From Heliocybe sulcata (lineage: Eukaryota; Basidiomycota; Agaricomycetes; Gloeophyllales; Gloeophyllaceae), in assembly GCA_004369045.1 (NCBI GenBank), contig ML213522.1:62001-126000 (forward strand): 64,000 nt of DNA, written 5' to 3'. Under the pieces are notes generated by a model. It saw only the letters and a list, made by a program, of their open reading frames with translations. It was not told the origin of the DNA and made no database searches. Shown one piece after another: positions 4,973-26,091 of this stretch (positions are counted from its first letter, which is position 1; each line of letters opens with the position of its first letter). The position numbers were made by a program, and so were the translations under genes.

Positions 4973-6602
4973 TATGCTGGTTACGTACCGGTTGCCGCTT
5001 CGCCTTCTCCAGCCTCCGCTTGACAGTCGCATCGTCCTTGGCGATAGTGGTGAGTTTCGCAAGTTCGAGCGGGTCGGCGTCCGGAAGGTCGCCCTCGTCC
5101 TCGTCCGAAGAGTCTCCGGAATCTGAGAAGCCGTGCAGGTGAACGGATGCGTTGTCCGAGTCAGCGGCGTCCTCTTCGTTAGAGTTCATTTCTGCGGCAG
5201 GTGAAGGTGATCTTGGCACGACGGGAGCTTCAGCGCGCTTGGACTTCTTGGAGGGAGCCATGGGTTTGACAGGTGCGAGCTCGGAAGAGATGGAGGTCAT
5301 GGCAACTATGGGCGTCGTCTCCTCCAGTTGCGGGTTCTCACTCAACGATGGGGATTCCTCAGCCTCAGCCACGCTACTCTCCGCCTGGGCAGCAAGAGCA
5401 GCCTCTTGCCTTTTTTCGGCTCGGCTCTTTCGCTTCTTCTTCGCTGGTGGCTCTGTGCTGAGTGTCGACCCAGGAGTGGGGCCGGACGCCTCTGGGCTCG
5501 CCTCTGGAGCAGCCTCAGCTTCCGCCTTCTTCTCGGCCTTGCTCTTCCGCTTCTTCTTCGCTGGTGGTTCTGTGCCGGGTGCCGACGCAGGAGCGATCTC
5601 GGACACCTCTGCGCTCATCTCTGGAGCAGCCTCAACTTCCGCCTTCTTCTCGGCCTTGCTCTTCCGCTTATTTTTCGTTGGTGCCTCTAAGCTGGGTGCC
5701 GGCGCAGGAGAGGAGACCTCTGCGCTCATCTCTGGAGCAGCCTCAACTTCTGTCTTCTTCTCGGCCTTGCTCTTCCGCTTCGTCTTCGTCGGCGGCTCTG
5801 CGCTTGGGGAGATAGCAGCAGTCACAACGCCAGAGACATCTCCATCAGCCTGCACGGTAGCCTCAGCTTCAGCCTCAGCCTTCTTCTCGGCCCTGCTCTT
5901 CCGCTTCTTCTTCGTGGGCTCCTCTGTGCTTGCGGAAAGAGCAGCAGTAACAGCGCCAGAGATATCTGCATCAGCCTGCACAGTAGCCTCAGCCTCAGCC
6001 TTCTTCTCTGCTCTGCTCTTCCTCTTCTTCGCAGGTGGCTCCACGCTGGAGGCAACAGGAGCAGGAGCGGAAACCTGCGCAATGGCTTCTAGATCTGTAA
6101 GAGCCTCAGAGTTCTTCTCCGCTTTACCCTTCCTCTTCCTTGACGGCTGTTCAGCGGTGGGGGCCGAGGTGGTGACAGGCTCGGGCTCCGGGTGCATCGC
6201 GTTCTCCTCAGCCTGACTCTCACCTCCTTTGCCTTTGCGCTTTCTCTTCTTCTTCTCTGGGCTCTCCACATCTGGCATAGCCTCTTCCTCAGCAGCCTCC
6301 TTCTGCACGGGTGCAACGTCCTTGGCCTCTACACTTCCCTTCGCTTCCTTTTGCTCCTCCGCTACCTTTGACACTTTCCGCTTCCTTTTCACTCTCTTCT
6401 CGCCTTCGGTTAACACGTCCTTGTTGTTCCCGGCAACATCGATCTTCTCTGCAGCAGCACTTGAGGGAGGCGAGGTCTTCGAAGATTCCTTGATTTTGAG
6501 AGCGGGTGTCCCCAGAACAGAGTCTTTAGCAGAAGCAGAGGCACTAGACCGCGCCTTTTTGTCAGCTTTGGAAAGCCTTTTAGATTCGACGTCCTTCGCC
6601 AT
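4281..6602 (-). CDS. NOP15: Nop15/NIFK-like nucleolar RRM protein with repeated N-terminus
   Basis: Probable ribosome-assembly factor of pre-60S particles (Nop15 in yeast, NIFK in animals, needed for ITS2 processing). The C-terminal half has one [23 protein letters not shown] (RNP2 region), [17 protein letters not shown], then [10 protein letters not shown] (RNP1) and [17 protein letters not shown], followed by the family's [13 protein letters not shown] tail. The start is the ATG at 6602 ([10 protein letters not shown]). The last exon is tiny: a tyrosine codon, an intron starting GTGGGT with a CTAAC branch, then KKSKAVA and stop at 4281. The N-terminal exon of about 540 residues is low-complexity and carries seven 36-41-residue repeats around [11 protein letters not shown]. 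Yeast Nop15 is only about 220 residues, so this extension is unusual. The 3' half is duplicated at 15543-16191. Confidence 0.88.
5380..6150 (-). repeat. Seven tandem coding repeats in the NOP15-like N-terminus
   Basis: Degenerate units of 108-123 bp each encode a basic core of the form [14 protein letters not shown] followed by an Ala/Glu/Ser/Pro-rich acidic spacer. Spacing and order of basic and acidic segments recall Nopp140/Treacle repeats. The length is a multiple of three throughout, so units can change in number without frameshift. Confidence 0.85.
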
Positions 6603-7258: not shown

Positions 7259-10200
7259 TCATTGCGGAGGTTTGAACTTCTTGTTCGCATAGCCAGTAGC
7301 AATCCTTCCCATACCCAGTCGCCTCTTGACAGGCCGGGCGGCGACCACGGGCGGTGTAGCCGCGCCTGGAGAACTAGATCCTTGCTCCGACGAAGGGAGG
7401 AGAGTGCATTGCGGGTATTTCAGACTTGATTCCACGTCATTTGGATGCACCGTCGCCGGAGTAGCCATGGGCGGGCACCTTGGAGGCTGCTTGCTCCTTG
7501 ATTCAGATACCCGGTGCAATGACGGGCGCTGATTAGAAAGTCCAGGATAATGAGCAAATTTTGAAGGTCGGTGGTGATTGGAAGAGTCTCCCAACAGATA
7601 TTGCGGCGCAGAAAAGGCCGTAGGTGCAAGCTTGACTTGCTGTCCTTCATTTTGAAGAAGGGCATGGGTTTGATATTTCTGCGTCACTGTAGGAAGCGGC
7701 ATCACTCCAAGACCGCGGCTAGGAAGCTTGTCCGTCAATTGGCGCTGTTCAACCGACTTGCCCGCGTCGGCTCGATAGACAGCATCAGCTGCTACGAAGG
7801 TAGTCGACATAGCTTTACTTGACGTGTCTGTAAACTGATGGTAGTGGTCTGTCCGGTAGCTGCGAGCAGAATTAGCGACGTCACCGTCCGAGTCTAGTAA
7901 ACCCCAAGACTTGACATGAACGTACAATTCAGCTAGCTTCCGTGCTACAACCTCTTCACTGGGTATCTCTCTGGCCAGGATAGCTGCCATCTGCTCCAAA
8001 GCGGCTCTGTCGAACTCGGGCATGTTTTCCGCGAAAATATCCTTCACGCCAGCGATGTATCAGTATTTGATTCTGCCACCGAAAAGTCGCACATACCGGA
8101 CTATCCTCAATTACAGCGCACACAAAGCCAGACAACTTCCTGCCCATCTGCTTCCCGGCCACAAGCCGCTTAGTGCAGTGCGACAGGTACAGAAGGTTCT
8201 GTGCCCGCGTGCAGGCCACATAAAGCAGTCGGCTGAGGCAGGAGTAGGTATTGGTGTTTGGACAGTGTGTATAGCTACCAGATCAACTCACCGTTCTTCA
8301 TTCGTATCTTCTGATAGAGCAAAGGGGAAGGTACCTTCCTCAACTGTATAACTGTCAGCGGACGCTCACAGGAATCGTAGAGCGCATACCAGCGGGGACG
8401 AATACGACAGGCCACTCTAATCCTTTCGCCGAGTGGCAGGTGGAGATAGTCACTTTCTGTAAGACACAGGTTCGGTACAGTAAGAACCATATGGATGTTT
8501 GCGACGTACCTCCCGTTCACCCTCTTCACCTCCCTCACCGGAATCGCCAGAGAGCATAGATGCCTGTAAGAAGAGTCGGAGAGGGGTGGACCTGCTAAGC
8601 CAGCTGAGCTCTCCAGGTCATCCTCTTAGCAATACGGCGCCGCCACTTACGCTTCTGAGGCCCTGTCCTCCTGCGCTGCTGCGATTCCGGGCGTCGCAGG
8701 CTTAACCTCGACGAAGCCCTCCTCATCCAACTCAACAGCCTCAGTCTCAGCCGGCATGTCATCCCAATCTTGATCCCGCTCATTATCCCCACCCGCTTCA
8801 ACATCCTCGGTGAGGTCTTGCAGAGCATACTGATAGTCATTCAGATCCGTCTGCACCTCACTCGCAAAGTTGATCAGCTCCATGACGTTCTCCCATCGCG
8901 TATCCGCATCTGGCTGCGTCCTCTTAAGATGCTCCTCATATTCCACGAGTCCTAGCAGCGCGCGGATGATGTCGGCGGGCATCGTTCCCTAAGGCCGGCA
9001 TCAGCTCAGAGAAGAGACAACACAAGGAAGCCCGAATACGCACCTGGCGAGCCGCAGTCCTGAGCTCACGGACAGCTTTGACGAAAGATGCGATCTTGCG
9101 TTTGACAGGCGGCTTGGTGTCGGGGACTCGCCCGTCGTATATGCGCTCGATAAACGCGAGCGGGGAGATGTGCTTGGCATGGGCGGCACGTAGGATCTCT
9201 CCTAGAGTCTGCAGAAGGAAGAAACGTGGGACATTGTGGCATTTACGCAGAGGTACCGGAATTAGGTCGAGAGGCTGACCTTGTCGCCGATGCCCCTACC
9301 TGGGACGTTGATAACCCTCTCGAAGGCCGGAACGAAGTCGGGATTGTCGACCACTTGCAAGTAGGCTAGTATGTCCTTGATCTACGGAAGGGGGAAGCGA
9401 TCGGTCAAGCCCTTACTCAAGGGAAAATCTATGCTGCTGTCTCGCCTCAAGACGTTCGAAGAACTTTTGTCCCTTCAGAACCCTGCACGGAATCCCTTCC
9501 TTCCGAAGCGCGCTCTCAAGGCTTCGCGAGAGCGAGTTCATACGGACTGCAATACGCGGCACATTAGTGAATATTTGAGGGACATCGTATCGCGACGTAC
9601 GCAAGATAACGAAATCCTCCCACCCCAGCAGCCCGCCCGACGCTGCCGATAGCCGCTTGATCTCCCGTGCAATGCAAGCTGACTCCTCTTGCTCAGAGGG
9701 GAAGCATTGTAGCACGGGTGTGCACCCGTTGGAATGCGATGTGTGGAGGGTTTTGGGAATGCGGGTTTTGTCTAGAGGGAAAGTATGAGTACGCGAGGCA
9801 AGGTGGCGGAACGATAAGGTGTAACAGTGACTGAATGGGTTGTGAGGGGAGACTGAGAGGACGAACCCTGAGACACGATGGCCATGGATGCGCGGAGGAT
9901 AGAGGCCGTGGAGCGATAGTTTTGCTCCAAGTAGATTTGCACGGTCGCTGGAAAATCTGCAAGAAGCAAATGTCTGGTCCGCAAGGATAGGCAATCTCAA
10001 AGGAGGGTACTCTCTTACCCAGTTTCATTCTTGCCAGGTTGGCGACTTCGGCGGATCTCCAGCCGTATACTGTATGCGCATGCATCAGCAGTGACAATGG
10101 GTAGTGACCTACTAAGACGGATTTTCGTACTAGATTGGTCCGGATCACCAACGATGGTGACGCATCGAGAGGAGGAAGCGATATGGCGCATGAGGTCGTA

Positions 10201-11107
10201 CTGTAGGGTATTTGTATCTTGGCTATGAAGACGGTGTCAACCTCGCCTTATTTGAGATAGGCGAATGGGAAGTTCGACGCACAACTCATCTACCAGGACG
10301 TGCTGACACCAGTTCGAGACTTGCTGCTGCGAGAACAGCCTAACACCATATACTAGGAGGTCGTCGAAATCGAGGCTGTTATTCTCGCGGAGGAACCTTT
10401 CGTAACTCTCGAACAGCTCCCCAATAACATGGTCGATGTCGTTGGATGAGGTGGCGAGATCGTGCGGAGTTTGCCCTTTCGACTTGGCTTTGGAGATAAC
10501 GGACATGACTGTGCGGACCTCGAGGGAGAGGTGCCTCTCGTCGAGGTAGCCTTTATATGGGTTCAGGAGTCGCTTCAGGATGGTCTTACTGAATGACAAA
10601 AGGCGGTAAGATAAGCGGAAATACAGATGACTAGTCCATTGTACCTTTCATCCGAATCGCATACTGTGAAGTTGCTTTTCACGCCCACGCGGTTCGGATA
10701 GCGCCTCAAGAACAAGGCGCACAGAGCGTGGAATGTTCCCGTCTTGACTTCCTCCACCTTCGCTTTCCCGATCAGCTTAGTTAGCCTCTCTTTCATCTCC
10801 CGAGCCGCCTTATTCGTGAACGTCACGGCGCATATAGACTGTGGCTGGATGTGCTCGTGGAGGATTAGATACGCGATTCTTGAGGTAAGGACCTGTCTCA
10901 AGCTGTCTGGTGAGGGCGTATAACGGAGATGTATGCTCCATACCTTGGTTTTTCCACTTCCAGGGCCGGCCAAAATCTGCAAAGGGACGTGATGTGGATG
11001 TCGGACAGCTGTCGATCTGTTTCATATCTGCGCTTGTTTAGGGCAGAATATAGGCACTAACCTCGGAGCTGTTCTGTATTCAGACATCTGAGGTATTCGT
11101 CGGCCAT
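7259..11107 (-). CDS. SRS2: Srs2-type UvrD/Rep family DNA helicase
   Basis: Predicted 3'-5' superfamily-1A helicase that removes Rad51 filaments and limits recombination at forks. The ATG at 11107 begins MADEYLRCLNTEQLR; splicing gives AVRHPHHVPLQILAGPGSGKTK, with Walker A GPGSGKT. Next come motif Ia (CAVTFTNKAAREM), TGTFHALCALFLRR, FDDLLVYGVRLF, the Walker B/DEFQDT motif completed across an intron (VDEFQDTNTLQYDLM), VGDPDQS, IYGWRSAEV, LEQNYRSTASI, ISTCHSAKGLEWPVVFVPA and EERRLLYVACTRAQN. The C-terminal tail of about 250 residues is disordered and ends RRLGMGR...GYANKKFKPPQ, an Srs2-like ending in fungi. It is divergent from the orphan gene at 11530, with about 420 bp between starts, and has a GACGCGTC box 14 bp upstream of the ATG. 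Exons 1-2 and a piece near 8.8 kb are duplicated at 16239-16568. Confidence 0.93.
8775..8922. repeat. Duplicated block B (source copy; partner 16239-16386)
   Basis: About 148 bp of the SRS2 coding region (encoding TRWENVMELINF and neighbours) recur at 16239-16386 at about 95% identity, with a few substitutions. In the copy the block is joined directly to block A on one side and block C on the other, marking two large deletions. Confidence 0.88.
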
Positions 11108-11120
11108 CTGTAGTAGCGTC

Positions 11121-11128
11121 GACGCGTC
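11121..11128. promoter_or_regulatory. GACGCGTC (MCB-like) palindrome before SRS2
   Basis: The palindrome lies 14-21 bp upstream of the SRS2 start codon. ACGCGT is the core bound by MBF-type (Mbp1/Swi6) factors in fungi and marks G1/S genes, including many DNA repair genes. The duplicate at 16581-16588 reads AACGCGTC, keeping the core. Its role is inferred. Confidence 0.4.
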
Positions 11129-11445
11129 GATACAATCCGAGCTTGCGCAGCAACGCGGTTTGTCACAAGGGTCACGTGCGTCACGGCGTCGCAAGAGGCG
11201 TCGCGGCAGGTGGCGCCGAGTTTGCGCTCGGACAAGGTTGCTGAAAGCCTCTATCACTGGTCTTCTTACCAAGGCGCATTCCTTCATTGTCTGGAAGAAT
11301 GCTATGGTATGTCGAAACTCGAACTGGACGCTGCGGAGGGCGACAATGTCCACATGTCTTTCTCTCCAAGCTTTGGATCCCGACTGCACAGACACCTAAC
11401 GGCGGCTGACAGTACGCCTGACAACTCGTCAGCCGCAGGGCAGAG

Positions 11446-11454
11446 ATATATAAT
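11446..11454 (+). promoter_or_regulatory. TATA box of orphan gene copy 1
   Basis: ATATATAAT lies 76 bp before the ATG at 11530. It is conserved in the second copy (16916-16924), and the third paralogue has ATATAAATT at 24521-24529. The distance to the ATG is 73-84 bp in all three genes. Confidence 0.6.
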
Positions 11455-11529
11455 ACTCGCACAATATTTGGCATTGACTTCTTGTCCTTATATCATCTGG
11501 CATACCGGAATATCCACCTGCAGTCAATC

Positions 11530-13000
11530 ATGGCGTTCAATCTCACCCCGCTGCTCTGGATTGTCGGACTCCTCTCTGTTATCGGACTCGCGACTGGTCT
11601 CGTCGCTGTCGTTCGCAGTTATCTGGCGTATAGGAACCATCCTCAGCCCTATCGCTTCACGTGGCTCTCGGACTCGGATTCTGTCGACCAGGTCGATGAT
11701 GGCGACGACGAAGAAGTGTCTTTCATCCATGTGAGCATGTACCACATATACCTTTGGACTTCTTCCTAACGTGGTTCCATCAGTGGGCACTGGGATATAA
11801 CGATAGCTACTGGCTGAAATCTGAGGACGAACCTGGTCGCATTAAACTCTGGTCAAAGCAGCTGGTGCGTGTGAGACTGCCTGTTACACCAACCTCTCCC
11901 TTACACCGTTGTCTCAGATGAACTGCTGCTCTCAATGGCGCAACGACCTCAGAACTCCCTGGACCCGCATTTCCACGATGGTGCCATCCCTGCTCCTCAC
12001 CTCACCCTCCGGCCGAAACCTCCCCGTGCCTGCAGTCAGCCTGCCCAACTCAAGACCTCGCCGCACCATCCTTTCTCCACGTCTGCTCTTCCCCAAGTGG
12101 AAACCACGCAATCTACCTCGCATTATACGCAACATGCCTGACGGAAGCGTCACACCACTGCTCGACGCCATCATCCCTTCACTCAGTTCTTCCTCGGTTC
12201 TCCTCCCTATTCCGGAAGCGCCTACTCCTGCGTCGCAATGGACTGCTCCGCCTACTGCTAGGAATAATGCACCGTCTATCTGGCTTGCCGCTGAGCCTCT
12301 CGCGAACACTATTGCTGCACCTGCCCAACCAAGTCTCCCTCTGAAGTCGATCAAGCAGCCTGTACTCGTCCAGCCTATTCATTCTATTGCCACTAAGCCT
12401 CTATCTCCCATCTCGACTCGCCCTGCTCCTCGTGTCATCACTCGGCCTCTTTCTTCTATCACAGCCCGGCCCCTCTCAGCCATCACTCGTCCTGCCTCAC
12501 TTCCTGTCTCGCCTCAATCTGCTCCTCCTATCCTCACCCGGCCACGCTTCCCGAGCATGGAGCACATCAAGCTCCCGCCTACCCCTCAAGAGCTCGCCAT
12601 CGCGGAGAGCCACGAGCGCATGAAGAAACTCATGTCCAACTTCCATACGAACGAAGCTGGACTGCCTACCCCCCCAACTACCCCCGTCCTCGACGTCAAT
12701 ACGATTAACAACTGGAGTCAATACACGCCTCGTCCTCACTTCGACGTCGATGCTACCGTCAGGGCTCCGGATTCCAGCGTGTTTATCATCGGCGATGACT
12801 CGGAGGAAGACATTCCACGTTTACTTGGCTCCAGCACCTCCCTGCACGACATGAGCCCTAAGCCTCCCTACATTACTACTCAAGCCCTGGGTTCCACCAT
12901 GGTCTCGGCGTCCTTGTTCAAGAAGGTCAAGGAGTCCGCGCCGTACAGACCCTCTCCCTTCCAGGTTACGATCGATATTACGCGGAGGATGACTGTTTAA
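11530..13000 (+). CDS. Orphan membrane-anchored Pro-rich protein, copy 1 (TSPSGRN family)
   Basis: I do not recognise this protein. Three exons: exon 1 (11530-11730, 67 codons) encodes a single N-terminal transmembrane helix (LLWIVGLLSVIGLATGLVAV), then RSYLAYRNHPQPYRFTW and an acidic Asp/Ser stretch. Exon 2 (27 codons) starts at a Trp codon, WALGYNDSYWL. Exon 3 is long and disordered, with the block PSLLLTSPSGRNLPVPA, PIPEAPTPASQW, a run of about eight-residue ITARPLS-like units, AIAESHERMKKLM, AGLPTPPTTP and FIIGDDSEEDIP. With a single helix at the extreme N-terminus it could be a signal anchor with a large cytosolic or lumenal tail. A near-identical copy starts at 17008 and a divergent paralogue at 24602 with the same three-exon plan. 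TATA at 11446. Confidence 0.82.
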
Positions 13001-13193
13001 AGGAGTTGCTCGAGGTGTCATGACTTACAGATATCACGAGTATTTTCCTATTATGAAGTGCGTCTATACGCCCATGTCTCTTTATTTCTGTGATTTTTCT
13101 TGGAATATTTTATCGGATAGATAGCGATGGGTGTATGAATACGGTGAAATGTGTGGCGCCCATCTATCATAACTTCTCTCTTGATGAATTGTG

Positions 13194-13513
13194 TTCGTGC
13201 TAAGGGCAGCGTTCACAACACCGCCGGCCGATTGTGTGGTACAAACATAAGCCCTTCTGGCTGCTAATGTCGGCAGTACAGAAGCAGTCAGTAAGTTGGA
13301 TGGTGACGCGTAACGGCTCGTGCGTCGATGTCACAGATCCTTCGAACTGCTTCGTGCCCGTCATGGGACTACAGACGACCTACCAACCTCAACAATTACA
13401 TCCTCAATCTGCAGGAGAGTACATATACTGGTACAATTTGCCGCCCACCGTAGCAGCGAGTACTGTGGACGCAAAGTTAGAGGCATTGCTGGCGGCACTA
13501 CAGGCATACGAGA
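13194..13513 (+). pseudogene. Truncated internal fragment of the LRR-like gene at 20.2-22.1 kb
   Basis: From the shared TTCGTGCTA to CAGGCATACGA this stretch matches 20479-20855. It keeps the intron donor context and the TTYQPQQL...SAGEYI(Q/Y)WYN coding block. It has lost a 10-bp piece near the start and about 60 bp around the intron acceptor. Nothing 5' or 3' of the gene is present: the left edge abuts the 3' flank of orphan gene 1, and the right edge ends in unrelated sequence. It cannot encode the full product. Confidence 0.85.
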
Positions 13514-13568
13514 TAATGCTGAAGGTACTAGCCATCTCCAATTCCGACGCATCCAAGACAGATCCTGG

Positions 13569-13625
13569 CTTGCTGACGAATCCATTCTTGCTGATGAATG
13601 CATTCTCGCTTGATGACGAATCCAT
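13569..13625 (+). repeat. Three imperfect 18-21-bp tandem units
   Basis: Units of the form CTTGCTGACGAATCCATT, CTTGCTGATGAATGCATT and a third slightly longer variant follow one another between the LRR-like stump and the dehydrogenase start. They lie about 100 bp before the ATG at 13724, in its presumed promoter or leader. Confidence 0.6.
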
Positions 13626-13723
13626 ACTGGTACTCATGACTGATCCATCGATCTACCCTATAAGTATGAGAGTTCCGAAGACTGGATACACATCCACACG
13701 TTCATCAATCAGTCAGACGAAGT

Positions 13724-15021
13724 ATGACGCAGCAGAAGGCATTGTTCCTCAAAGAGAAGCAGGGTGCTTGGGAGGTCAGTGCGACCTCGATTCCAGAGCC
13801 GGGCGCCGGGGATCTGTTGGTCAAGATTGAGGCCACTGCTTTGAATCCCGTGGACTGGAAGATCCAGAAGTATGATTGGTTGGTTGAGGAGTATCCTGCC
13901 ATCGTTGGTACAGACGCTGCCGGAGAGGTTGCGGCAGTCGGTGACAGTGTTGCCGGATTCAAAGTAGGGGATAAAGTGTTAAGTTTCTGCTCCTTCCACG
14001 CCATGGGGAGCTAAAGTGCTTACGCGCCCTCTGCTAGGTTCCACCAGGGATGGTTCTCGAACAACAAGGCGACGTTCCAGCAGTACACGACCGTCCCTGC
14101 TGAGATAGCTGCTAAGGTCCATCTACTTCCACATGAACGTCCTACAGAAAGAATCGCTAAGGCCATCTCATTCAGCTCCCTTCAAACATCTCCTTGGACG
14201 AGGCCGCTTCTATTCCCCTTGGGCTTGCGACCGCTGCTCTTGGCTTGTATAGCACACTCGATAAAGGAGGCCAGCGGGGCGCTGGCCTGACTCCCCCATG
14301 GGAAGATGCTGGCCGCGACAAGTACGCAGGCAAGCCCATCCTCCTCTTCGGGGGCGCAACCTCTGTTGGACAGTACGGTAAGAGCAACCCACATTTTCCC
14401 ACTTACTCACTTACTAATACAAATGCGTAACTTAGTCATCCAACTCGCCAAGCTTTCTGGGTTCTCCCCAATCATCGCCACCGCTTCCGCCAAGCACACG
14501 TCGTTCCTGAACTCCCTCGGTGCCGACCACGTCATCGACCGCAATAAACCTCTTTCCGAACTGACTGAGCTTGTCTCGCTGACCAAGTCACCTCTGGAAG
14601 TCGTCTACGACGCGGTGAGCTTTCCCGAGACACAGCAGACGGGTTACGATGTCCTGGCCCCGGGTGGGACTCTCGTCATCGTCCACGTTGAGCAGATCAA
14701 TAAGGACTCGTCCGCAAACAAAACAGTTACACAAGTCTTTGGTACTGTGCACGGGTCGGCCGAGCGTGCCACAGGTGTGAGTCTGTACAGCAAGCTCACT
14801 AGTCTAGTAGAGAAAGGCGAGATCAAGGCGCGTAATATCATGTATCCTTGCTGACGCGACGTACCTTGTTGACCTGACGTATCTGCTAGCCCAACCGAGT
14901 CGAGGTCCTGCCTAACGGCTTGGCCGGCATCCCCGACGGCCTGAAGCGTATGGAGGAAGACAAGATTAGCGGAGTGAAATTGATTGCTCGCCCACAAGAG
15001 ACATCCTTATTGTCGCAATAG
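13724..15021 (+). CDS. MDR-family NADPH-dependent reductase (zinc-type alcohol dehydrogenase-like, ToxD-like)
   Basis: Medium-chain dehydrogenase/reductase. The N-terminal GroES-like part has PEPGAGDLLVKIEATALNPVDWKIQ and PAIVGTDAAGEVAAVG, typical of the zinc-free quinone-oxidoreductase/trans-enoyl-reductase branch rather than catalytic-zinc ADHs. The NADPH-binding motif is LLFGGATSVGQ, with the Rossmann continuation VIQLAKLSGFSPIIATAS and LGADHVIDRN. It ends RPQETSLLSQ at 15021. The first intron has donor GTTAAG within the GTG codon of DKV and rejoins at FHQGW; three to four more small introns follow. Usual length is about 350 residues and this fits. The substrate cannot be read from the sequence; relatives act on quinones, enoyls or polyketide intermediates, but no biosynthetic gene cluster lies around it. 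It sits between the two copies of the duplicated segment. Confidence 0.88.
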
Positions 15022-15162
15022 TTGGCTACCAGAATTAATATCGCCACCTTCTCTTGAATATCATCTGGATGTTTCCCAACGGACCAGTGAAGTAACGACT
15101 GTCCATGCTAGGTTATAACCCTCATAGGCACGCAGCACTTTCTAGCTCACGGACCACCCAAG

Positions 15163-15357
15163 ATGCCGCCGAAACTACGACTGTCAGCATTCGCGGAGCC
15201 ATCAGAGCCATCGGTGTACAAACCAGAGGACAATCCCAAGGAGCAGTTGACGAAGTCGCAGGAGGAGAACCCCCAGGTCGTAGCTTGCAAGGCAGACAAG
15301 GCGACAAGGGCAAGAATAAAGAGAAACAAAAAGGAAAGGAGAAGTCGAAGTTGTGAT
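15163..15357 (+). pseudogene. Second copy of the small Lys-rich ORF, tail frameshifted
   Basis: It begins MPPKLRLSAFAEPSEPS and keeps EDNPKEQL and SQEENPQVV. A length change in the Lys-rich part moves it out of frame, so the tail GKEKSKL and stop lie in another frame. Read in the starting frame it extends past that point to RSCDKSGVRLT. It could still make a small protein with a different end, but is more simply a decayed copy. Confidence 0.55.
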
Positions 15358-15542
15358 AAAAGTGGGGTGCGTCTGACATAGAGCCGACGTGTATCCTCAT
15401 GCCCTGTTTCAGAGAAGCGGGACTGGTTCAGCTGCCGAGCTGAGCCGTCAACCTGTACGATTATAGGGATAGGGTCGAAATACACCATTTACACCAGCAG
15501 TAAAACAATGTGACAGTCAATAAGACGTGTCCACTCGACAGA

Positions 15543-16191
15543 CTATGCTACCGCTTTGGGCTTTTTCTGCGCACAGATACCGGTCAGCATCAGAATAAGC
15601 AGGGAAAGGACGCATACATTCACATAAAATACCGCGTCAAGATCGTATTTAATCCCAAGCTCTTCCAGCTTGCATTTCCGCACATCCTGCTGATGCAGCA
15701 GCCTTCTCTCCGCCTTCGCCTGCTCCTCCAGAGTCCTTGCCTGGATTCAGACGTGTCAGCGCCATTCTGGGGCCAAACACCACAGGAAATCTCACCTTGT
15801 TATGCTGCACTCTTGCAATGCGATCCCTTGGCACGACCCTCCACTTTCTATTCGCGCCGGCCCGCAGTTCGAGGTGGACTTCCTCCTTTGGAATAATCTT
15901 ACATTGGAGGATGTGCCCCATCAACAGGTAGTTGTGCATCGTGTCTGCGACGATTTTTGCGACCTCGGACGACGCGAACTCGACAAAGGCGTAGTGTTTC
16001 GAGCTGCCGGTCTGGGCTAACTAGTGAGTTAGGTGTGACGAACAGAGGACATAGTAGAGGAACCTCCTTGTTGCGCGACAAGCGCAAACGAGTGACCTCC
16101 CTAAACTGCGAGAAGTACCCGCGCATCTGGTCCTCGAAGAACCCATGAGGCAGGCGGCTGATCCAGATCACCCCCCGGTCCTCGGTCTATA
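15543..16191 (-). pseudogene. 3' stump of NOP15-like gene (RRM and tail only)
   Basis: This duplicate of the RRM exons has no N-terminal exon and no start region. The frame is still open through [28 protein letters not shown] region, [14 protein letters not shown] and the last exon KKPKAVA, with the splice sites largely kept. Substitutions hit conserved sites (QFGEVTRL has become QFREVTRL, NKK has become NKE, and the GANRKW context is changed). Without a promoter or N-terminus it is probably not functional. Confidence 0.82.
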
Positions 16192-16238
16192 CATCCCAGA
16201 ATACGGAAGCCTGTAAGAATAACCGGATGGACGAACAA

Positions 16239-16568
16239 CCCGCTCATTATCCCCACCCGCTTCAGCATCCTCGGTGAGCTCTTGCAGAGCATACTGATAG
16301 TCATTCAAATCCGTCTGCACCTCGCTCGCAAAGTTGATCAGCTACATGACGTTCTCCCATCGCGTAACCGCATCCGGCTGCGTCCTGAGATTCTTGTTCC
16401 GTACTTTGGTCTTTCCACTTCCAGGGCCAGCCAAAATCTGCAGAGGGACGTGGTGTGGCTGTCGGACAGCTGTCGATCTATGTTATGTCCGCGTGTGTTT
16501 ACGGCAGAATATAAGAACGAACCTCTGAGCTGTTCTGTATTCAGACACTTGACGTATTCGTCCGCCAT
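16239..16568 (-). pseudogene. 5' stump of SRS2 (exons 1-2) fused to an internal SRS2 piece
   Basis: The ATG at 16568 starts MADEYVKCLNTEQLR. The same first intron is kept, and exon 2 reads AVRQPHHVPLQILAGPGSGKTK with Walker A intact. A deletion then joins this to block B', giving a short bridge followed in frame by RTQPDAVTRWENVM and a stop, where the intact gene has a Glu codon. The predicted product is about 57 residues, P-loop only. It probably has no helicase function. Confidence 0.8.
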
Positions 16569-16915
16569 CGTGGCAGCGTCAACGCGTCGATACGACCCGA
16601 TGCTTGCGCATCGACGCGGTTTGTCACAACTGTCACGTGCGTCACGATGTGGCGAGAGGGCGATGGCGCAGGGTTTGTGCTCGAACAAGGTTGCTGAAAG
16701 CGCTGAAAGCCTCTATCACTGCTATCGCTGCCAAGGCTCATTCCTTCATTATCTGGAAGAATGCTATTGTATGTCAAAACTCCAACTGGACGCTGCGGAG
16801 GACGACAGTGTCCACATATCTTTCTCTCCAAGCTTTGGATCTTTGGATCCGGACTGCACAGACACCTAACGGCGGCTGACAGTACGCCTGACAACTCGTC
16901 AGCCACTGGGCAGAG

Positions 16916-16924
16916 ATATATAAT
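16916..16924 (+). promoter_or_regulatory. TATA box of orphan gene copy 2
   Basis: ATATATAAT lies 84 bp before the ATG at 17008, in the copied divergent promoter. Confidence 0.55.
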
Positions 16925-17007
16925 ACTCGCACAAAGGCATTGACTTCTTATCCTTTTACCATCATCTATCCGTATTGACATACCGGAATATCCACCTGCA
17001 GTCAATC

Positions 17008-18490
17008 ATGGCCTTCGATCTTACCCCGCTCCTCTGGATTGTCGGATTCCTCTCTCTTATCGGACTAGGAACTGGTCTCGTCGTTATCATTCGCATGTAT
17101 CTGGCGTACAGGAACCGTCCTCAGCCCTATCGCTTCACGTGGCTCTCGGACTCGGATTCTGTCGACGAGGTCGATGATGGCGACGACGAAAAAGTGTCTT
17201 TCATCCACGTGAGTATGCATGTTTACCTTTGGACTTCTCCCTAACGTAGTCCCATCAGTGGGCGCTGGGTAATGACGATAACTACTGGCTGAAATATGAG
17301 GACGAGCCTTGTCGCATTAAACTCTGGTCAAAGCAGCTGGTGCGTGTGAGACTGTCTGTTACAGCAACCTCTCCCTTACGCCATTATCTCAGATCGACTG
17401 CTTTTCTCAATGGCGCAACAGCCTCAGAACTCCCTGGACTCGCGTTTCCACGCTGGTGCCATCCATACTCCTCACCTCACCCTCCGGCCGAAACCTCCCC
17501 GTGCCTGCAGTCAGCCTACCCAACTCAAGACCTCGCCGCACCATCCTTTCTCCACGTCTGCTCTTCCCAAAGTGGAAACCCCGCAACCTACCTCGCATTA
17601 TACGAAACATGCCTGACGGAAGCGCCACACCCCTGCTCGACGCCATCATACCTTCCGTCAGTTCCTCCTCGGTTCTCCTCCCTATTCCGGAAGCGCCTAC
17701 TCCTGCGTCACAATGGACTGCTCCGCCTACGGCTAGGAATACTGCACCGTCTATCTGGCTTGCCGCTGAGCCTCTCGCGAAGACTATTGCTGCACCTGCC
17801 CAACCAAGTCTCCCTCTCAAGTCGATCAAGCAGCCTGTAGTCATCCTGCCTGTTCGTCCTATTGCCACTAAGCCTCTACCTCCCGTCTCGACTCGCCCTG
17901 CTCCTCGTGTCATCACTCGGCCTCTCTCTGCTATCGCAGCCCGGCCTCTCTCTGCCATCACTCGTCCTGCCTCACTTCCTGTCTCGCCTGTACTCTCTCG
18001 ATCCACTCCTCCTATCATCGCCGAGCCACGCCTCCCGAGCATCGAAAACATCAACCTCCCGCCTACCCCTCAAGAGCTCGCTATCGCGGAGAGCCACGAG
18101 CGCATGAAGAAGCTCATGTCCAACTTCCATACGAACGAAGCTGGACTGCCTACCCCCCCAACTACCCCCGTCCTCGACGCCAATGCGATTAACAACTGGA
18201 GTCAATACACGCCTCGTCCTCAGTTCTGCGTCGATGCTACCGTCACGGCTCCGGATTCCAGCGTGTTTATCATCGGCGATGACTCGGAGGAAGACATTCC
18301 ACGTTTGCTTGGCTCCAGCACCTCCCTGCACGGCATGGTCCCTAAGGTCAAGTCTCCTTGCATTGCCACTCAAGCCCCGGGTTCCTCCATGGTCCCGGCC
18401 TCCTTGTTCAAGAAGGTCAAGGAGTCCGCGCCGTACGGGCCCTCGCCCTTCCAGGTTACGATCGATATTACGCGGAGGATGACTGTTTAA
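17008..18490 (+). CDS. Orphan membrane-anchored Pro-rich protein, copy 2 (TSPSGRN family)
   Basis: Intact duplicate of the gene at 11530 with the same three exons. Exon 1 encodes MAFDLTPLLWIVGFLSLIG and the rest of the single transmembrane helix, followed by the acidic stretch. Exon 2 begins WALGNDDNYWLKYEDEP, and exon 3 has PSILLTSPSGRNLPVPA, PIPEAPTPASQW, TRPLSAI-type repeats, AIAESHERMKKLM, AGLPTPPTTP and FIIGDDSEEDIP, ending DITRRMTV. Small in-frame insertions and deletions distinguish it from copy 1 in the proline-rich region and near the C-terminus. No stops interrupt it, whereas the neighbouring copied genes have decayed; this argues that the product is used. The function is unknown. 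Confidence 0.82.
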
Positions 18491-18672
18491 AGGAGTTGCT
18501 CGAGGCATGACTTACAGATATCACGAGTATTTTCCTAGTATGAAGTGCGTCTATACGCCTATGTCTCTTTATTTCTATGATTTTTCTTGGAATATTGTAT
18601 CGGATAGATAGCGATGGGTGTATGAATATTGTGAAATGTGTGGCGCCCATCTATCATAACTTCTCTCTTGAA

Positions 18673-20211
18673 TAAATTGTGGCGATCGAATCCTACGAGT
18701 GGTGGCGAGCTATCAAAATTTCACTCGTACTGGAGTCAATAGTGTCTTCGCTGAGGAAAATAAGCAGCGGACCAGCGCCCAAGTAGGGAATTTTTCTGAT
18801 TTCTGCTCGCTGATTGGCCTGCAACGAGCCCCACTCGCAGTCAATAACTTAGCGAATATGTTATCCCGGTAAAAGCTCGCCGATGATACAGATTATGCCG
18901 GAAAACTATCGATTCGAAGCTCAGAAGCAGCGACAAAATCATTGTGTTTCTCCACAACGCATCCATATCGAGAAAGTTTCCCTTACCAAAACAGTCTGGA
19001 TGAAGGCTTCCCCGAGCCAGGAAAGAGGGGGGGTCTGGTCACACTTCACGCAGTATGATAAAATGCTCGCAAGGGAACCTTCACCTAGAAAGCACCTTCA
19101 CCGCCGCCTGGCCGTGCCCTCAGTCCTTCCGGCAGCTGCCTAGGCTCAAGCAACTGAAGCACTGGAACCTGCGACGTGCCGGATAGTTCGACGCTGCGAG
19201 AAGGAGATATCAAGGCGTCACCAGCCGTTTTCCAAGGTCCATGGCGTGCCGTCGCATCTTGACTTTCCTGGAACCACTGAAGGAAGATGGAAGGGGTGAT
19301 GTTTGGCGGGGGGGAGGCGACCCAAGGTACGTTTGTCTATACGTTCGGTTATATCTGTGGTAGGATCGCAAAGACGACCAGCGTAAGCGTAGCACGGGTG
19401 GAAGCAGTAATACGCAAGTCGCAAGTCGCGGGCCCTCGTGCCATTCCACTCGTCCACCCGAAACGCAATGATTCCTGCCCTCGGTCTGAGCCCTTGCAAA
19501 TGCTCTGTTTCTCTTCTAATTGGAGCCCGAACGTCTGCGCGAGGTCGCTGTCTTCGTCCGTGTGAGCGATTTGTCATGTCGTCGCTGTGCCTACGTATCA
19601 AATGAAAACGCGTAATGGAGATGTGAATCAGCGACCGACCGCTTCAAGCCATCTGGAATGATACCGAACGAACCTTGACTCTCGTACTTAACTGACGGCA
19701 CAAGGGACTGGTCGAAGTCTCCAGGACTCGCAGGACTCGCGAAAATGAGGTGTATACTGATGTGTTGACATGTGTCTTTCCACTCATACGTACGGCGCCG
19801 CGTCCTCGGCGGTAACTGAGTTCCAAACTAGAGGCGGCATCTGCTCACATTAATGCTCGTTAGCAGAATGTCGCCCAATCCTTTTGCATTGCCCACATAC
19901 TGGAATCCTTTGAAGCCCTATCTTGGAATCGTAGTCGTGTGCGCGAAAATAGTCAAGACAGCAGAGCCACCGCAATCAGCTCCAACATTTTTCGGAGCTT
20001 ACCAACTTTGTCTGGGAGTAATGTTTCCCGCAGGTGCGTTTGCTATAACCGATCGGTTTCTCTAGAGCAGGGAAGAGAAATCCTTGAATGGGAAGATGGG
20101 CGCAGAAGAGCCGAAGCAAGTATAACCCACCCTTAAATCATAATAAACGTCCTCCGACCTCCCAGGATTCGGTCTGCTGTCGAGGGATCATCTCGCCTGG
20201 GCAAGGTTGAT
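18673..20211. other. 1.5 kb without a supported gene
   Basis: Several open frames exist but none shows family resemblance, good splice partners or conservation with the other duplicate. The corresponding stretch is absent at the 13.19-kb junction, where orphan gene 1 abuts the LRR-like stump directly. Any 5' exons of the LRR-like gene would lie at its right end. Confidence 0.45.
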
Positions 20212-22084
20212 GTGCGACAGGCCATGACTGCCCGTTCTCATCAAGTCTTCGCGATTGCTCGCATCGGGCCTGGCAGTGGCTTTTCGGAGGAGGAGAGGAG
20301 TTACAGATGCGTCGCCGCGCTGCATCACGAGCGATGCTACGGTCCTCTGGCGGTTCAGGCTATGCTCCGCTGCTTGGTCCTGGTCAAGCAGAGGGAGAAC
20401 GCGGAGGTCGTCCGCGCTGAGCTCCGGTCCATCGATGGGCAGTACGAGCTCCCGGCCATTCCATGTCCATATATCGCCTTCGTGCTAGGGGCAGCGTTCT
20501 CAACAGATCTGGGCACCGCCGGCCGATTGTATGGTACAAACATCAGCCTTCTGACTGCTGATGTCGGCAGTACAGAAGCAGTCAGTAAGTTGGATGGTAA
20601 CGGCCCGTGTAACGGACTACCTGACAGCGCGGACAGGCAACACGGACGGCATATCGATCGTCGATGTTACAGATCCTTCGAACCCAGCCTACTGCTTCGT
20701 GTCGGTCAGGGGGCTACAGACGACCTACCAACCTCAGCAATTACGTCCTCTATCTGCAGGAGAGTACATACAGTGGTACAATTCGCCGCCCACCGTAGCA
20801 GCGAGTAGTATGGACGCAGAGTTAGAGGCGTCGTTGGCAGCACTACAGGCATACGAAGTGGTCGACAGACAGGCCCTCTTCGAGTCATGGCCGACGGAGT
20901 ATGGAAGCGAGATATTCAGGCAGAGCATCGACATCCTAAGAGCTCCCGACCGGAAGATGCTGTCCCTAGCGGATCTCGCTATAGGTCCGGCTATGGAGTA
21001 TGCTTTGCAGGAAGATGACTTCTCCGGCATCGTGGAGGCACTCATCATGCCCGGCAGAGTAAACATCGTGCGGGATTACTTCAACTGCATGCGGCCCATC
21101 CCCGACTCAGCAATATACCTGCTGCACGAGGTTGTATCAAGCCTCGATGGACTTGCAGAAGGTCGTCTCGACCTTTCGGATATGTGGCTGTCCACCGAGC
21201 AGATTCTTGACATCGTGGTGCACGTCGGGGATGGTGTGAAATCCCTCAACCTGTCCTTTAATCCTAATGTCATGTCAGACACTGTGCAAAGCGTCATCAT
21301 GGCATTACCTCAGCTGCGTCGTCTGGTTGTCATGGGATGCTCCGGCCTGTCAGGACAGGACTTGGCCCAACTGTTCCGCAGAGAACGCCATCTGTTCTCG
21401 AACATGGAAGCGCTCATCCATCCGTTCATCCTGTCGTTCGATGCCTCGCCTATGAACTGCCTGTCCGTGGTGACCTACTCCCATGGGCATGGCATAGCGA
21501 GAACTACGGTCCCGTTTGCCACCCCGCTGTGCATCGTCCAGAACCTGATCGATTACTTGAAGATCTTCATCACCGGCCATCCGGACGCATTTCAGATGGC
21601 CAGTTCCAGGCCTTGGATTGCGTGGTCCGCCTTCGGAGCAGCACCTAAAAAGATGGGTCAGTCATGGGCCGAGAGAAGTTTGGTATGCATACCCGCGTTC
21701 TCTACGGCTACGATGGATGGGGAGGGGTGGATGTTTCTTCTCAGTGCCGATGGTGCCATGCCCCAGCCCCGCAAGACCTGGGGATTTATCAGGTTCCGAG
21801 AGTCGAGTCAGGATAATGGCATGAGTGAACCGTCTACCGAAGAGATACCTTCTGGTGGACGATCGGGAGATTTCACTACGGTCGAAGACTCTGGACGCAC
21901 TTTGGAGATTCACAGCTTCCGTTCATTCCTTCAGATCATCACCGCCGACAGTCGAGACGAACCTTCCGAGGACGTCGTGCAGGAGTTGGAACAGATCCTA
22001 GACCAACTTCATCAAGAGCAGAATATGGAGATCATGGACCATCGAGATGTCCGCCAGCATTTGTTCGACGTGCTGAGGAGATGA
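20212..22084 (+). CDS. LRR-like protein of unknown function (5' end uncertain)
   Basis: I recognise only repeat features. A first exon (frame open from the ATG at 20212, containing GPGSGFSEEERSYRCVAALH and ELPAIPCPYIAFVLG) ends at 20584 before GTAAGT. The intron closes at 20636 (or 20627), giving SNTDGISIVDVTDPSNPAYC. Exon 2 runs open to the TGA ending DVRQHLFDVLRR. It includes TTYQPQQLRPLSAGEYIQWYN and a leucine-rich region (DGVKSLNLSFNPNVM, ALPQLRRLVVMGCSGLSGQD) that looks like two LRR units. No membrane segment, F-box or NTPase motif is seen, so it may be a scaffold protein. The true start may be further upstream in another exon. A stump of the same gene is at 13194-13513. Confidence 0.68.
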
Positions 22085-24520
22085 TGCTGCAGGCGCTGTA
22101 CAGCCTGCGTTGGTAAGTGAAATAGCATCAACGGCGCACGACTTGTCTGATTCATTCCCCCAGATTGTGTTGTGTGTATCGCTGCTTTCGAGCGCTGCTT
22201 CAGGCCCAGGGCCTGACCGGTGCTCTTCTTTTTCTTTTCTCGGGTTCCAATTCTTGTGATGGACTGCTGTAAGGGTAGACGAGCGACATCGGCACCAGAC
22301 GCTGGTGTTGGTGGTAAAGGTTGTTCAGGGCATGAGATGCGCCGTGTTAATATTTTCTTGACTTCTGCGCTGGGGTTCACAGGCATCTTCGCCGCTGGGA
22401 TGTCTGATACTACTAGCAATGCCGGAGAAAATAAGGCAGCCAGCGTTTGGACAGGGAGCAGGCTCTCGTAGACAGCGCCGGATGCGTAGCAGTCTCCAGT
22501 CCTGACTACTGTTCCATTATTTGAATCGCCTGCATGTTTGACAAACATACAGTACTGAACTCGGTCCATCTCTGCCGTGCTCGGGCCAACTTAGCGGCTG
22601 TTCCACGTGGGTTATTGATCCGATCACTGTCCAATCAGCGCCCTCGCGATCTGCAGTAAGTAAATGACCTCGGCTTAACTAGTGGTCAATGCACAGGCCT
22701 CAGGCCTCAGCGCTCAGCAGTCGGCTGGCATCTGTCGCCTTCTGTCGCGCGTTCTCGTCAGGCGAGACGTCTAGCTCACTATGCCTCGCACGACTCAGCA
22801 TAGGAAGAAGCCCGAACAGAATGTTATCATGCTCTTGTGCGCAACAGTTCGCAAGCAGCGACGACTCTGGGTACGTATCTCACCTTCGTCTCCCAACCTC
22901 TGTATGCATATACTTACAATCTCCTTTAGAAATATGCTTGCGGTCGTAGCTCAACAAATGCAGGGTTTGCTTCTCCCATGGTTTAACATGCTTCAAGCGT
23001 TATGTACATAATTGACGGAGTCGTGGGACAGCGTCCTGGGAGAAGAAGAAGAAAGAGAAGGAGAGCAAATTTCTGCATTTTGTGAGGAAGGAGCTGGAAC
23101 AAAATGTGCGCCTTTCTGTTGGGTTTCTTCTTCGCTCTCTGATGCGGATGCCGACCTGTTTACTGTTTAGCTTACCGCCTACGTAACATAGCTCGCCAGG
23201 AACACGGAGGTGTGTTCCATCCAGCTGTTCTTTCCCCGGTCAATTGTTCACGCGGACATGCATCCGATACCTCTTCTCCCCGTTCCGAGCGCATATACCC
23301 CTCTTCATGACACTTACTGAGGCTCCGCAATGCATGTGTGCCCCAAGGCATCGGGAACAGGGATGCCTATGATACAACCGCTCTGACTCGGCTTTCAGGA
23401 GCAAAACATACGAGTTATTCGTGTCCGCTTACGTCGAGGCCGAAGACGAAATCCGTGCGTTGTGGGAACAACTTGTGGAGGAGCAAGGGATTTTCCTTGG
23501 GCGTCCATCCATCCCCGATAGCTGGCTTTCCTGTCGCCTCGTCTAATCACCTATGTTCCCTGCCGAGCTCCTACCAGCTCCTACCTCGTGCTTTCTCGTC
23601 CATCTCACTGATCTCTCCTCCCGCGCTCTTTCACACCTATACCTTCCGGCTCTCTCATGTTGTACGTGGTAGCTCATCTGCTCCCATACAGGACCTAGCG
23701 CGGCGCAAGTGCGAGTCCCGATCCAGTGCCGAGTCCGCGCGCGAAGATGCTGACCTGCAGGGCATGGCGCAATGTAAACGAGCTTGTGAAGATCTGCTCT
23801 CTTGACGGGCCATGCTTTCAGGATACTACTTGCTCGCATCTCTAGACTCGGGGACGTTAATTTCGACATCGATGCAATAAACTTCGTGTATATGCTCTTC
23901 CTTGCCGCCCAGTTGCCCGTGCTACGTCCTTGTTGCTCGGATGCCGTTTGTTGCGCTTGTCGCTTTCGAGAAACCGTAGGCCATGTATTCCCCTTTTACT
24001 GTACCATAGGTGCCTACGGTATTGCGATGTGATGAGGTCAATGATTTCTCAGCCTCAGCCTCAGGTTTTGATATCGCAGATGTGCCAGGGATCATATATC
24101 ATATGTAGGGGAAGCTCAAAGTTCAAGATAGGACGGTACGCGTGACACAGCCACTGCCACCACTGCCACCCCCTCCACCCCCTCGCTTGAGAAGTACCGT
24201 AGGTACTGCCACTCGGATATGTCAACGCACTACGCTTTTGAAGTATTACAACCAATATTCTCTTCTCCGCAGTCCTGGAAGAAGGCGAAGAAGGACTGCA
24301 TATAAGGCAATTGGACGAGTCGCAGGTCCATCTCACCCTCCATGCTCAGTTTCCGAGTTACTTTCGACGATACAAAGTCTACCAAGCTTCGGCCTGCCAG
24401 GAGGTACAGAAAACTTTGTAGTTTGTACTAATGAACGAGCTCATTAGGAGATCACATCTGTCAATGGCGCCGGAAGGAGTAAATTCAGTGTCAGCCGCTG
24501 GCTGACTGCCCAGGTGCGCA
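22085..24520. other. 2.4 kb without a supported gene
   Basis: The largest gap in the window. The longest candidate is a minus-strand frame of 185 codons with an ATG at 22569 that overlaps the tail of the LRR-like gene; I do not accept it. Notable simple sequence: a purine run (GGAGAAGAAGAAGAAAGAG, near 23040) and a C-rich tract near 24145-24185 whose minus strand has several G runs. Confidence 0.45.
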
Positions 24521-24529
24521 TATAAATTC
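24521..24529 (+). promoter_or_regulatory. TATA box of orphan gene copy 3
   Basis: ATATAAATT lies 73 bp before the ATG at 24602, at the same distance as in the two other family members. A TCAGCCGC element just upstream also resembles the copies at 11430. Confidence 0.5.
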
Positions 24530-24601
24530 CTGTTCAGACGTTGAGGCTTTCTCGTGTCTTACATCGATCTTCGAGGTTAGCCGCACAACGACTCTACCAT
24601 C

Positions 24602-26091
24602 ATGGTTGCAATCCTTCTTATACTCTTGGTGCTCGTGGCTATCTCTCTCTTCGGTGTCGGCGTTTGTCTTGGACTGCTCTACCTGGACTACATGCACCGC
24701 CCCGTTGTCTACACATTCACCCCGGATAGTCAGGAGAATACTATGCAGGAGGACAGTTTCAAAGCTGTGAGTATTCGGTGCTCTGCGAGGTTACGGCGAC
24801 ATGACTGACAGCTCAATTATCCAGTGGCTATTCGCCAAGAATCAAGAGCAAATGTTCGTTCGACCGAGCCGTCTCAAGTGCCTGGTATGCGTTTTATTAC
24901 CTTGTAAACATTATCGGTTCTGATCTTCCCCAGGTGGTCGCTATATGCGATGTGCCAGGAAACATAAAGTTTTTCATCATCGAGCTACCGCTCAACCTCA
25001 TGGCAATATGGACCAACCTCTTTCCGACCGGACCTTCCCTCCTCCTCACCTCGCCCTCGGGCAGAAATATTCCGATGCCAGCCGCCGTCCGGCCGGCGCG
25101 GTATCGGTTCATAATGATACCACAACCCTTGTTCCTGCACACTTACTGGACGCCGCGCGAGACTCAAAACACTCTCTCTGAAGAAATGTGCACTCAGGAA
25201 AGCGCTACACCTATGCTCGATGCTCTCGCCGACGGCCTGTCTACCTCTGTCGACAGTCCTCCGCAACTCCTGCCTGTTCCCGAAGCGCCTACGCCTGCAT
25301 CGCATCAATGGTCTTCTTCTTGCTCTCTCAGTGCTGAGTCGTCACCCATCTGGCTCTCCACTGACTGTGCTGCTTCCAGAGAGCCCGAGCTCACTGCTTC
25401 AACTGCTATGGAGGAGCTTCCTTTGCCCGCGACAGCCGCCAGCACACCAGCCAATGCGACTCGCCGTTGGAGCTTGCCTTCCTTCCGGATATCAAGCGGC
25501 ATCCGAGACTATAAGGATAGCCGTGAAACCTGTGGACGCTGGAGCTTGGCTGGAGCTGAAAACTTGACGCCCACGCTTAGGGAATCGGTTACCCTTGAGG
25601 AGGAACTGGCGGACTCACACGAGCGTATGCGGGTCCTTATGTTTGGTGCTGCTCTGCGGGACGCTGGCAAGGACACCATTGCGGATAACCACAAGCGGAT
25701 GAGTCTGCTGATGGAGAAGACGGCTAAGTACGATGCGATTAAGAACCAGGCAGGACTTTTCACCCCTCCACCAACGCCTGCGATGGAGAATGCAGACTTG
25801 GAAGCGAACTGGCCGCAAGGTAACGAGTGCTGCTCTACCTTTTTGAGGGTAAACGGAGTTGACATTGCCCGCCCAGAATCCACTTCGGCGACGTATCTCG
25901 TTCAATCGGACAACTCTGGCGACATCGCTTCGTGCCTTCTCTCCCGCAAGATCACCATTTCAGCTTCCAAGAATATCAAGACGGTTGAAGGGCTCGAGCA
26001 CATCGAGGTGGCAGTGGCGCCCGAAGTTGCTCATCACGAGTGCGAAGCTGTCATCGGATACTGGATGCCAGAGGCTGGTCTGACCGCCTAG
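24602..26091 (+). CDS. Orphan membrane-anchored protein, divergent copy 3 (TSPSGRN family)
   Basis: Paralogue of the genes at 11530 and 17008, older by its divergence. The plan is the same: exon 1 with one N-terminal helix (ILLILLVLVAISLFGVGVCL), then MHRPVVYTFTPD and an acidic end; exon 2 of about 22 codons starting WLFAKNQEQ; long exon 3. Shared blocks in order are PSLLLTSPSGRNIPMPA, ATPMLDAL, PVPEAPTPASHQW, ADSHERMRVLM (with a second, related DNHKRMSLLM downstream) and AGLFTPPPTPAMEN. The run of ITxRPLS units of copies 1 and 2 is absent. The C-terminus has a different sequence and ends MPEAGLTA. Conserved intron positions and the spaced motifs make the relationship secure even though the function is unknown. 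Confidence 0.82.

Follow-up and report, generated by a model that had tools for sequence, protein, structure and literature searches.

What does a membrane protein do when most of it is a long tail that seems free to change? A stretch of the Heliocybe sulcata genome raises this question. The window analyzed here, all 64,000 nucleotides of C20:62001-126000 (contig ML213522.1), carries three related genes, c1, c2, and c3, each predicted to encode a protein with one hydrophobic region at its N terminus followed by a long, probably disordered tail. A search of the genome (31.6 Mb, 51 contigs) places them in a family of ten genes and one relic, and the family is under purifying selection. As for function, we tentatively suggest, while holding it well short of probable, that this orphan family is a diverging set of single-anchor membrane proteins whose tail would recruit 14-3-3 proteins in a phosphorylation-dependent manner and, in some members, would contain a phosphodegron. 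It is an interesting orphan family and not a new kind of system.

Three genes with a common plan

All three genes lie on the forward strand and have three exons. c1 (11530..13000; exons 11530-11730, 11784-11864, and 11918-13000) encodes 454 amino acids, and its model draws on in-frame exons, GT-AG introns, and homology to c2-c6. c2 (17008..18490; exons 17008-17208, 17259-17339, and 17393-18490) encodes 459 amino acids and is a recent segmental duplicate of c1. c3 (24602..26091; exons 24602-24766, 24825-24884, and 24934-26091) encodes 460 amino acids. Every exon consists of whole codons, and all six predicted introns are GT-AG at splice sites that we chose. Introns of 50-58 bases fit a fungal genome. 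These gene models confirm the three genes that an earlier note on this DNA had proposed, along with their plan, in which a hydrophobic helix at the N terminus is followed by a short exon whose first codon is Trp and then by a long one whose product is predicted to be disordered. Two of the note's measurements need adjustment. Exon 2 does begin with Trp in each gene, but the length given for it, 22-27 codons, fails for c3, which has 20 in the present model. Likewise, the distance of 73-84 bp from TATA box to ATG holds if measured from the end of the box, but not from its start, which lies 83 (c1), 91 (c2), and 81 bp (c3) before the ATG.

At the protein level, c1 and c2 are 86% identical, and c3 is 27-29% identical to either (BLASTP E values of 5e-17 to 4e-23 when the three sequences are compared). 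The motifs that they share follow the order described earlier and were located by coordinates: PSLLLTSPSGRN (PSILLTSPSGRN in c2), P(I/V)PEAPTPAS, SHERM(K/R), and AGL(P/F)TPP. A further block at the C terminus, LF(K/R)(K/D), is found in c1, c2, c4, and c5 and is missing from c3.

A family of ten

How far does the family extend? It had been described as having three members, a count that the genome does not bear out. Searches with exon 3 of c1, c3, c4, c5, and c6 and with a 359-residue part of exon 3 from d2 bring the total to ten members, five on contig C20 (c1-c5) and five on C9 (c6 and d2-d5), plus a decayed relic on C28. Exon-3 homology located c4 (C20:231608-233343, minus strand), which is 44% identical to c3, and c5 (C20:58369-60120, plus strand). 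On C9, it located c6 (C9:721902-723735, minus strand), d2 (about 946 kb), d3 (about 682 kb), d4 (about 691 kb), and d5 (about 754 kb), the last with a frame change in exon 3. Together, these form a five-member sister group spread over about 682-947 kb. The relic (C28:110480-111190, about 110.5-111.2 kb) is nearest to c3 and contains stops and frame changes. A marginal match on C11 has an E value of 0.14.

One exon plan is common to all ten models: an exon 1 of 165-201 nucleotides, an exon 2 of 60-81 nucleotides with TGG as its first codon, and a long exon 3, with no codon split between exons. The splice sites of these models are predictions, because they were chosen with homology in mind. In a direct comparison of six sequences, c6 matches c1-c5 with E values of 3e-4 to 4e-9. 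The best scores against c1-c5 are 44 bits for c6, 35 for d2, 40 for d3, 34 for d4, and 33 for d5, compared with a maximum of 29 among shuffled sequences (500 per protein, head and tail shuffled separately). Since the C9 proteins score above all 500 shuffles and have the same exon plan, we take the two contig groups as one family; judged from these scores, their relationship is distant but above chance. A tree separates the groups with full support, although it is arbitrarily rooted and carries a long-branch warning for c5 and the C9 group.

Two repeats were seen in passing. The tails of d2-d4 contain tandem copies, varying in number, of a PAVVAATATKVVKASQPGN-type repeat, and a glycine-coding, G-rich repeat lies immediately 3' of the c5 stop codon (locus L009, from 2842).

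Purifying selection

Are these functional genes? One could suppose that they are decaying or spurious open reading frames (ORFs), and one relic and one frame-changed copy do exist. This is highly improbable given frames that are long and intact, an exon plan retained across proteins of 25-30% identity, and the ratios of nonsynonymous to synonymous substitution rates (dN/dS). By the method of Nei and Gojobori, dN/dS stays below 1 for each of the 11 pairs computed, and the family is thus under purifying selection. The six pairs among d2-d5 give 0.28-0.45; c6 compared with d2, d3, and d5 gives 0.25-0.28, with dS near 1; and c3/c4 gives 0.29, with dS of 1.5. For c1/c2, where the earlier note would have counted a value near 1 against the family, dN/dS is 0.58 (Fisher P of 0.009, from rounded counts).

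When c1 and c2 are compared over eight segments, two of these exceed 1, with ratios of 1.8 and 1.1, each on few changes. Could this be a fast-turnover family concerned with self/non-self recognition or conflict (allorecognition, for example), diversified by local duplication? The loose groups on two contigs, the C28 relic, the frame change in d5, and the variable tail repeats of d2-d4 would fit, as would those two segments, with their small counts. We consider it unlikely all the same, with the overall ratio below 1 in every pair and with c1 and c3 lacking any Pfam domain.

Membrane anchor and tail

A hydrophobic segment, 19 residues or longer, lies at the N terminus of all ten proteins, and the residues before it have a net charge of 0 to -2 and include no Lys or Arg. 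By Kyte-Doolittle analysis, hydrophobic segments occur only near the N terminus, aside from one weak segment at residues 75-93 of c3. The flank that follows the helix has a net charge of +2 to +4 in c1, c2, c5, c6, and d2. Which way would such a protein face? Under the positive-inside rule, the basic flank of a membrane helix stays in the cytosol. A neutral or acidic N-terminal side together with the basic flank seen in half of the members therefore suggests an N-out, C-in topology, and the most likely arrangement is a predicted cytosolic tail of about 400-580 residues.

An alternative is that these are secreted or cell-surface disordered proteins, with the hydrophobic region serving as a cleaved or uncleaved signal sequence. 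Its position at the extreme N terminus, the Ser/Thr/Pro-rich tail, and the five members that lack a clear basic flank all point that way. The absence of Lys or Arg before the helix, the length of the hydrophobic segment, and the basic flank of the other five point away from it, and we regard secretion as quite unlikely.

What of the tail itself? An AlphaFold model of c3 exon 3, made with six sequences, has a mean predicted local distance difference test (pLDDT) score of 41.3. It places helices at exon residues 9-29, 215-242, and 252-270 and shows no further helix or strand of reportable length. The second and third helices cover the SHxRM-type motifs described below and form the highest-confidence region, with blocks at 50-70 pLDDT.

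Conserved blocks of the tail

The strongest block common to c1-c6 is P-x-x-LLTSPSG, followed by prolines and a distal Trp; its second Leu is invariably kept together with the next residue. Alignment puts LLTSPSGRN on the forward strand at 11993..12019 in c1, 17468-17494 in c2, and 25042-25068 in c3. The earlier note had made TSPSGRN the defining block of the family, which cannot stand: exact TSPSG is present in six of ten members, and the four C9 proteins d2-d5 have lost it, reading VVTSPLHND (d2), LVTSPSSND (d3), LVTSSSSND (d4), and LVTSSND (d5). TSPSG was accordingly rejected as a family hallmark. In the relic, the block reads LLLTAPLGEN. Across the genome, a DNA pattern for LLTSPSG finds 22 matches, compared with 17 for a backward control; with all 22 translated, the family context appears only in c1-c6.

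SHxRM-type motifs, also on the forward strand, occur once in c1 (SHERM, 12608-12622) and c2 (SHERM, 18092-18106) and twice in c3 (SHERM, 25615-25629, and NHKRM, 25687-25701), c4, and c5; they are absent in d2-d5. Every member, in addition, has 9-19 Ser/Thr-Pro sites in its tail.

These blocks could be the main business of the protein. It might be a membrane-anchored scaffold, for example, a structural protein of the septum, endoplasmic reticulum, or plasma membrane, with its chief partners binding at TSPSG, the Trp exon, and the SHxRM helices, and with the R-x-x-S-x-P sequences discussed next being incidental or serving only as kinase sites. The prominence of P-x-x-LLTSPSG in c1-c6, the SHxRM region being the best part of the model, and the many Ser/Thr-Pro sites favor such a scaffold. 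On the other hand, d2-d5 have an altered TSPSG and no SHxRM yet remain under purifying selection, and their R-x-x-S-x-P sites persist. We rate this scaffold as possible, if doubtful.

R-x-x-(S/T)-x-P sites and 14-3-3

What does persist in every member is a short phosphorylation-type motif. R-x-x-(S/T)-x-P occurs in all ten proteins, beginning between residues 251 and 302: two sites each in c1, c2, c4, and c5, one in c3, and three each in c6 and d2-d5. In the window, the sites are on the forward strand at 12431-12448 (RVITRP) and 12488-12505 (RPASLP) in c1, 17906-17923 and 17963-17980 in c2, and 25462-25479 (RRWSLP) in c3. Nine of ten members thus have at least two, although one of the two in c1 and c2 is RVITRP, which has no counterpart in other members. 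The reversed pattern, used as a control, has a single occurrence each in c1 and c2 and is absent from the remaining eight members. Five representatives (c1, c3, c4, c5, and c6) together have 10 sites compared with 2.7 expected in shuffles, with a P of 0.0005 that is only a guide, because the representatives are related and their independence is overstated. The sites are also conserved within the C9 group: over three sites, c6 shares 17 of 18 hexamer residues with each of d2-d5, against 48-61% overall identity (P of 0.005-0.010 relative to random hexamers, a single-test value like the other conservation P values given here for hexamers and for TPPxTP).

What might read such sites? The mode I 14-3-3 motif is given as R[S/aromatic][+](pS/pT)XP, with many partners deviating from it (PMC9523730). 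Its core, Arg at -3 and Pro at +2, is present in the family, as in RSFSLP, RSFSMP, RRWSYP, and RRTSLP. A looser 14-3-3 form is RSXpSXP. The genome does encode a candidate reader: a search with PF00244 gives two adjacent matches at one place, on C2, probably two exons of one 14-3-3 gene.

Two sites on one chain are described as a common high-affinity mode of 14-3-3 binding, with CFTR as a membrane example (PMC12017986). The present proteins resemble clients of the CFTR R region type in having a tail, predicted to be disordered, on a membrane segment and R-x-x-S-x-P-like cores, at least two per chain in nine of ten. They differ in having one membrane helix rather than a channel and in lacking a basic residue at -1; the likeness implies no homology, and binding is a prediction.

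A degron-like site in c1-c4

A second motif is restricted to part of the family. TPPxTP occurs once in each of c1-c4, on the forward strand at 12668..12685 in c1 (TPPTTP), 18152-18169 in c2, and 25762-25779 in c3 (TPPPTP). Shuffles of these four proteins produce it in 0.7-4.7% of cases, and the hexamer is fully conserved between c1 and c4, which are 27% identical overall (P of 0.011). It fits [TS]PPx[TS]P, a consensus drawn from known Fbw7 degrons (PMC8955265), and so looks like a site for Fbw7/Cdc4. As in substrates of the MYC and cyclin E type, it follows Gly plus hydrophobic or aromatic residues (AGLPTPPTTP, AGLFTPPPTP, and AGVYTPPTTP). Unlike those substrates, six of ten family members lack the site, and its degron function is putative. 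Most known Fbw7 targets, moreover, are nuclear transcription factors (PMC8955265). A universal Cdc4 degron for the family was rejected, with TPPxTP in only four of ten members.

A proposed docking tail

On the basis of the R(-3)/P(+2) cores, the paired sites, and the TPPxTP consensus, we propose a membrane-tethered, phospho-regulated docking tail. The mechanism would have four parts. (i) Basophilic kinases would act on the cytosolic tail, phosphorylating its one to three R-x-x-(S/T)-x-P sites. (ii) The phosphorylated sites would bind a 14-3-3 dimer at the membrane, at both sites where two are present on one chain. (iii) In c1-c4, proline-directed kinases would phosphorylate TPPxTP, creating a Cdc4/Fbw7-type degron that limits the life of the protein. 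(iv) The SHxRM helices and the TSPSG block would probably be additional partner sites. The docking platform suggested earlier thus stays plausible and becomes more specific, with all ten members having R-x-x-(S/T)-x-P cores and four having TPPxTP.

A good deal weighs against this proposal. To begin with the family itself, the genome-wide link between C20 and C9 is weak (c3 to c6, E of 0.006; c4 to c6, 0.28; c6 to c3, 1.3), and c1, c5, and d2 as genome-wide queries did not retrieve the other contig group. The anchor is not uniform: the flank after the helix is only 0 to +1 in c3, c4, d3, d4, and d5, and d2-d5 have about 50 hydrophobic N-terminal residues, possibly a hairpin. Disorder is supported, not proven, because the mean pLDDT of 41 comes from a model of six sequences. 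Single shuffled proteins carry at least one R-x-x-(S/T)-x-P in 28-56% of cases, and c3 has a single site. Hexamer conservation within C20 is weak: c4/c3, 7/12 (P of 0.26); c5/c3, 8/12 (0.05); c5/c4, 7/12 (0.09); c4/c1, 6/12 (0.08); c1/c2, 12/12 (0.32); and c1/c3, 1/12 (0.96). The optimal mode I motif is not matched beyond its core, as the residue at -1 is Ile, Ala, Trp, Phe, or Thr and never basic, and Ser is at -2 only in RSFS(L/M)P. As for TPPxTP, a scan of all ten members finds it absent in c5, c6, and d2-d5, and its conservation is not significant in c1/c3 (5/6; P of 0.07), c3/c4 (5/6; 0.14), or c3/c5 (4/6; 0.21).

Why pursue the docking tail, then? A testable functional idea is rare for an orphan membrane protein whose tail is disordered. 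With ten paralogues to compare, kinase-type sites, short helices, and, in one subfamily, TSPSG stand out as persistent within a tail that otherwise changes freely, and the comparison supplies concrete peptides and partners for testing. If 14-3-3 is indeed recruited, this widespread signaling adaptor would have in the family a membrane scaffold specific to one lineage; if not, the family is still an example of short motifs persisting in fast-changing disordered sequence. A bolder version, which we think rather unlikely, is that these unnamed membrane-tethered tails combine three phosphorylation codes: sites for basophilic kinases that a 14-3-3 dimer would read, proline-directed sites, and a degron of the Cdc4 type, this last in one subfamily. 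Were this true, signaling would set both recruitment to the membrane and the lifetime of the anchor.

Relation to known families

Does the family belong to anything already described? The earlier note had named a characterized relative as evidence against a new family, and none appeared: c1 and c3 have no Pfam match at E values up to 1, and a six-member exon-3 profile finds only two chance-level matches among PDB sequences (E of 0.36 and 0.92). One peptide pattern around LLTSPSG gave 29 matches in viral contigs and 7 in prokaryote genome contigs, none of them confirmed. A viral or prokaryotic origin was rejected, since this pattern found no relative in either contig set. At gathering thresholds, Rfam has no match in the window. 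A search of the open-access literature, that on septal pore cap proteins included, turned up no account of such a family, which is not proof that it is unpublished. On these comparisons, it appears to be an orphan family relative to Pfam (for c1 and c3), PDB sequences, and the viral and prokaryote contigs. Orphan families are common in fungi.

One candidate for kinship was Snowball (SNB1, DUF6533) of the Agaricomycetes, described as having seven helices and a Pfam-type domain (PMC10949477). Both are fungal membrane protein families of unknown mechanism and are partly disordered. The present proteins differ in having a single hydrophobic region, at the N terminus, and neither c1 nor c3 matches a Pfam family; membership was rejected for want of seven helices.

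Duplication and neighboring genes

c1 and c2 arose in one recent segmental duplication that includes their flanks. The left copy (10926..13184) and the right copy (16387..18671) each contain a 5' flank, the gene, and a 3' flank and share repeat families D1-D5, D7, D9, and D10, at spacings of 5461-5490 and 85-97% identity. Flanks and introns of c1 and c2 are 86-94% identical. The promoter spacing and intron positions common to the two genes, offered earlier as independent evidence, therefore prove little, as both lie inside the duplicated segment.

Upstream of c1 and divergent from it is a UvrD-type helicase gene (8598..11021, minus strand, ends approximate), with UvrD_C on ORF 9413-10000 (E of 8e-8) and AGPGSGKT in the frame 10578-11021. 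Beside c2 is a remnant of this region (16239..16569, minus strand; D8 and D4), whose two adjoining pieces correspond to 8775-8922 (95%) and 10926-11108 (85%). Downstream of c1, 13346-13511 is a 90% match to 20691-20856, within ORF 20561-22084, whose 507-residue product has no Pfam match. The two copies of the duplication seem to have lost different neighbors. Between c1 and c2 lie frames at 15546-16186 (minus strand), which may encode an RRM-like RNA-binding protein, and a zinc-binding dehydrogenase gene (14306-14854, plus strand; ADH_zinc_N, E of 3e-14).

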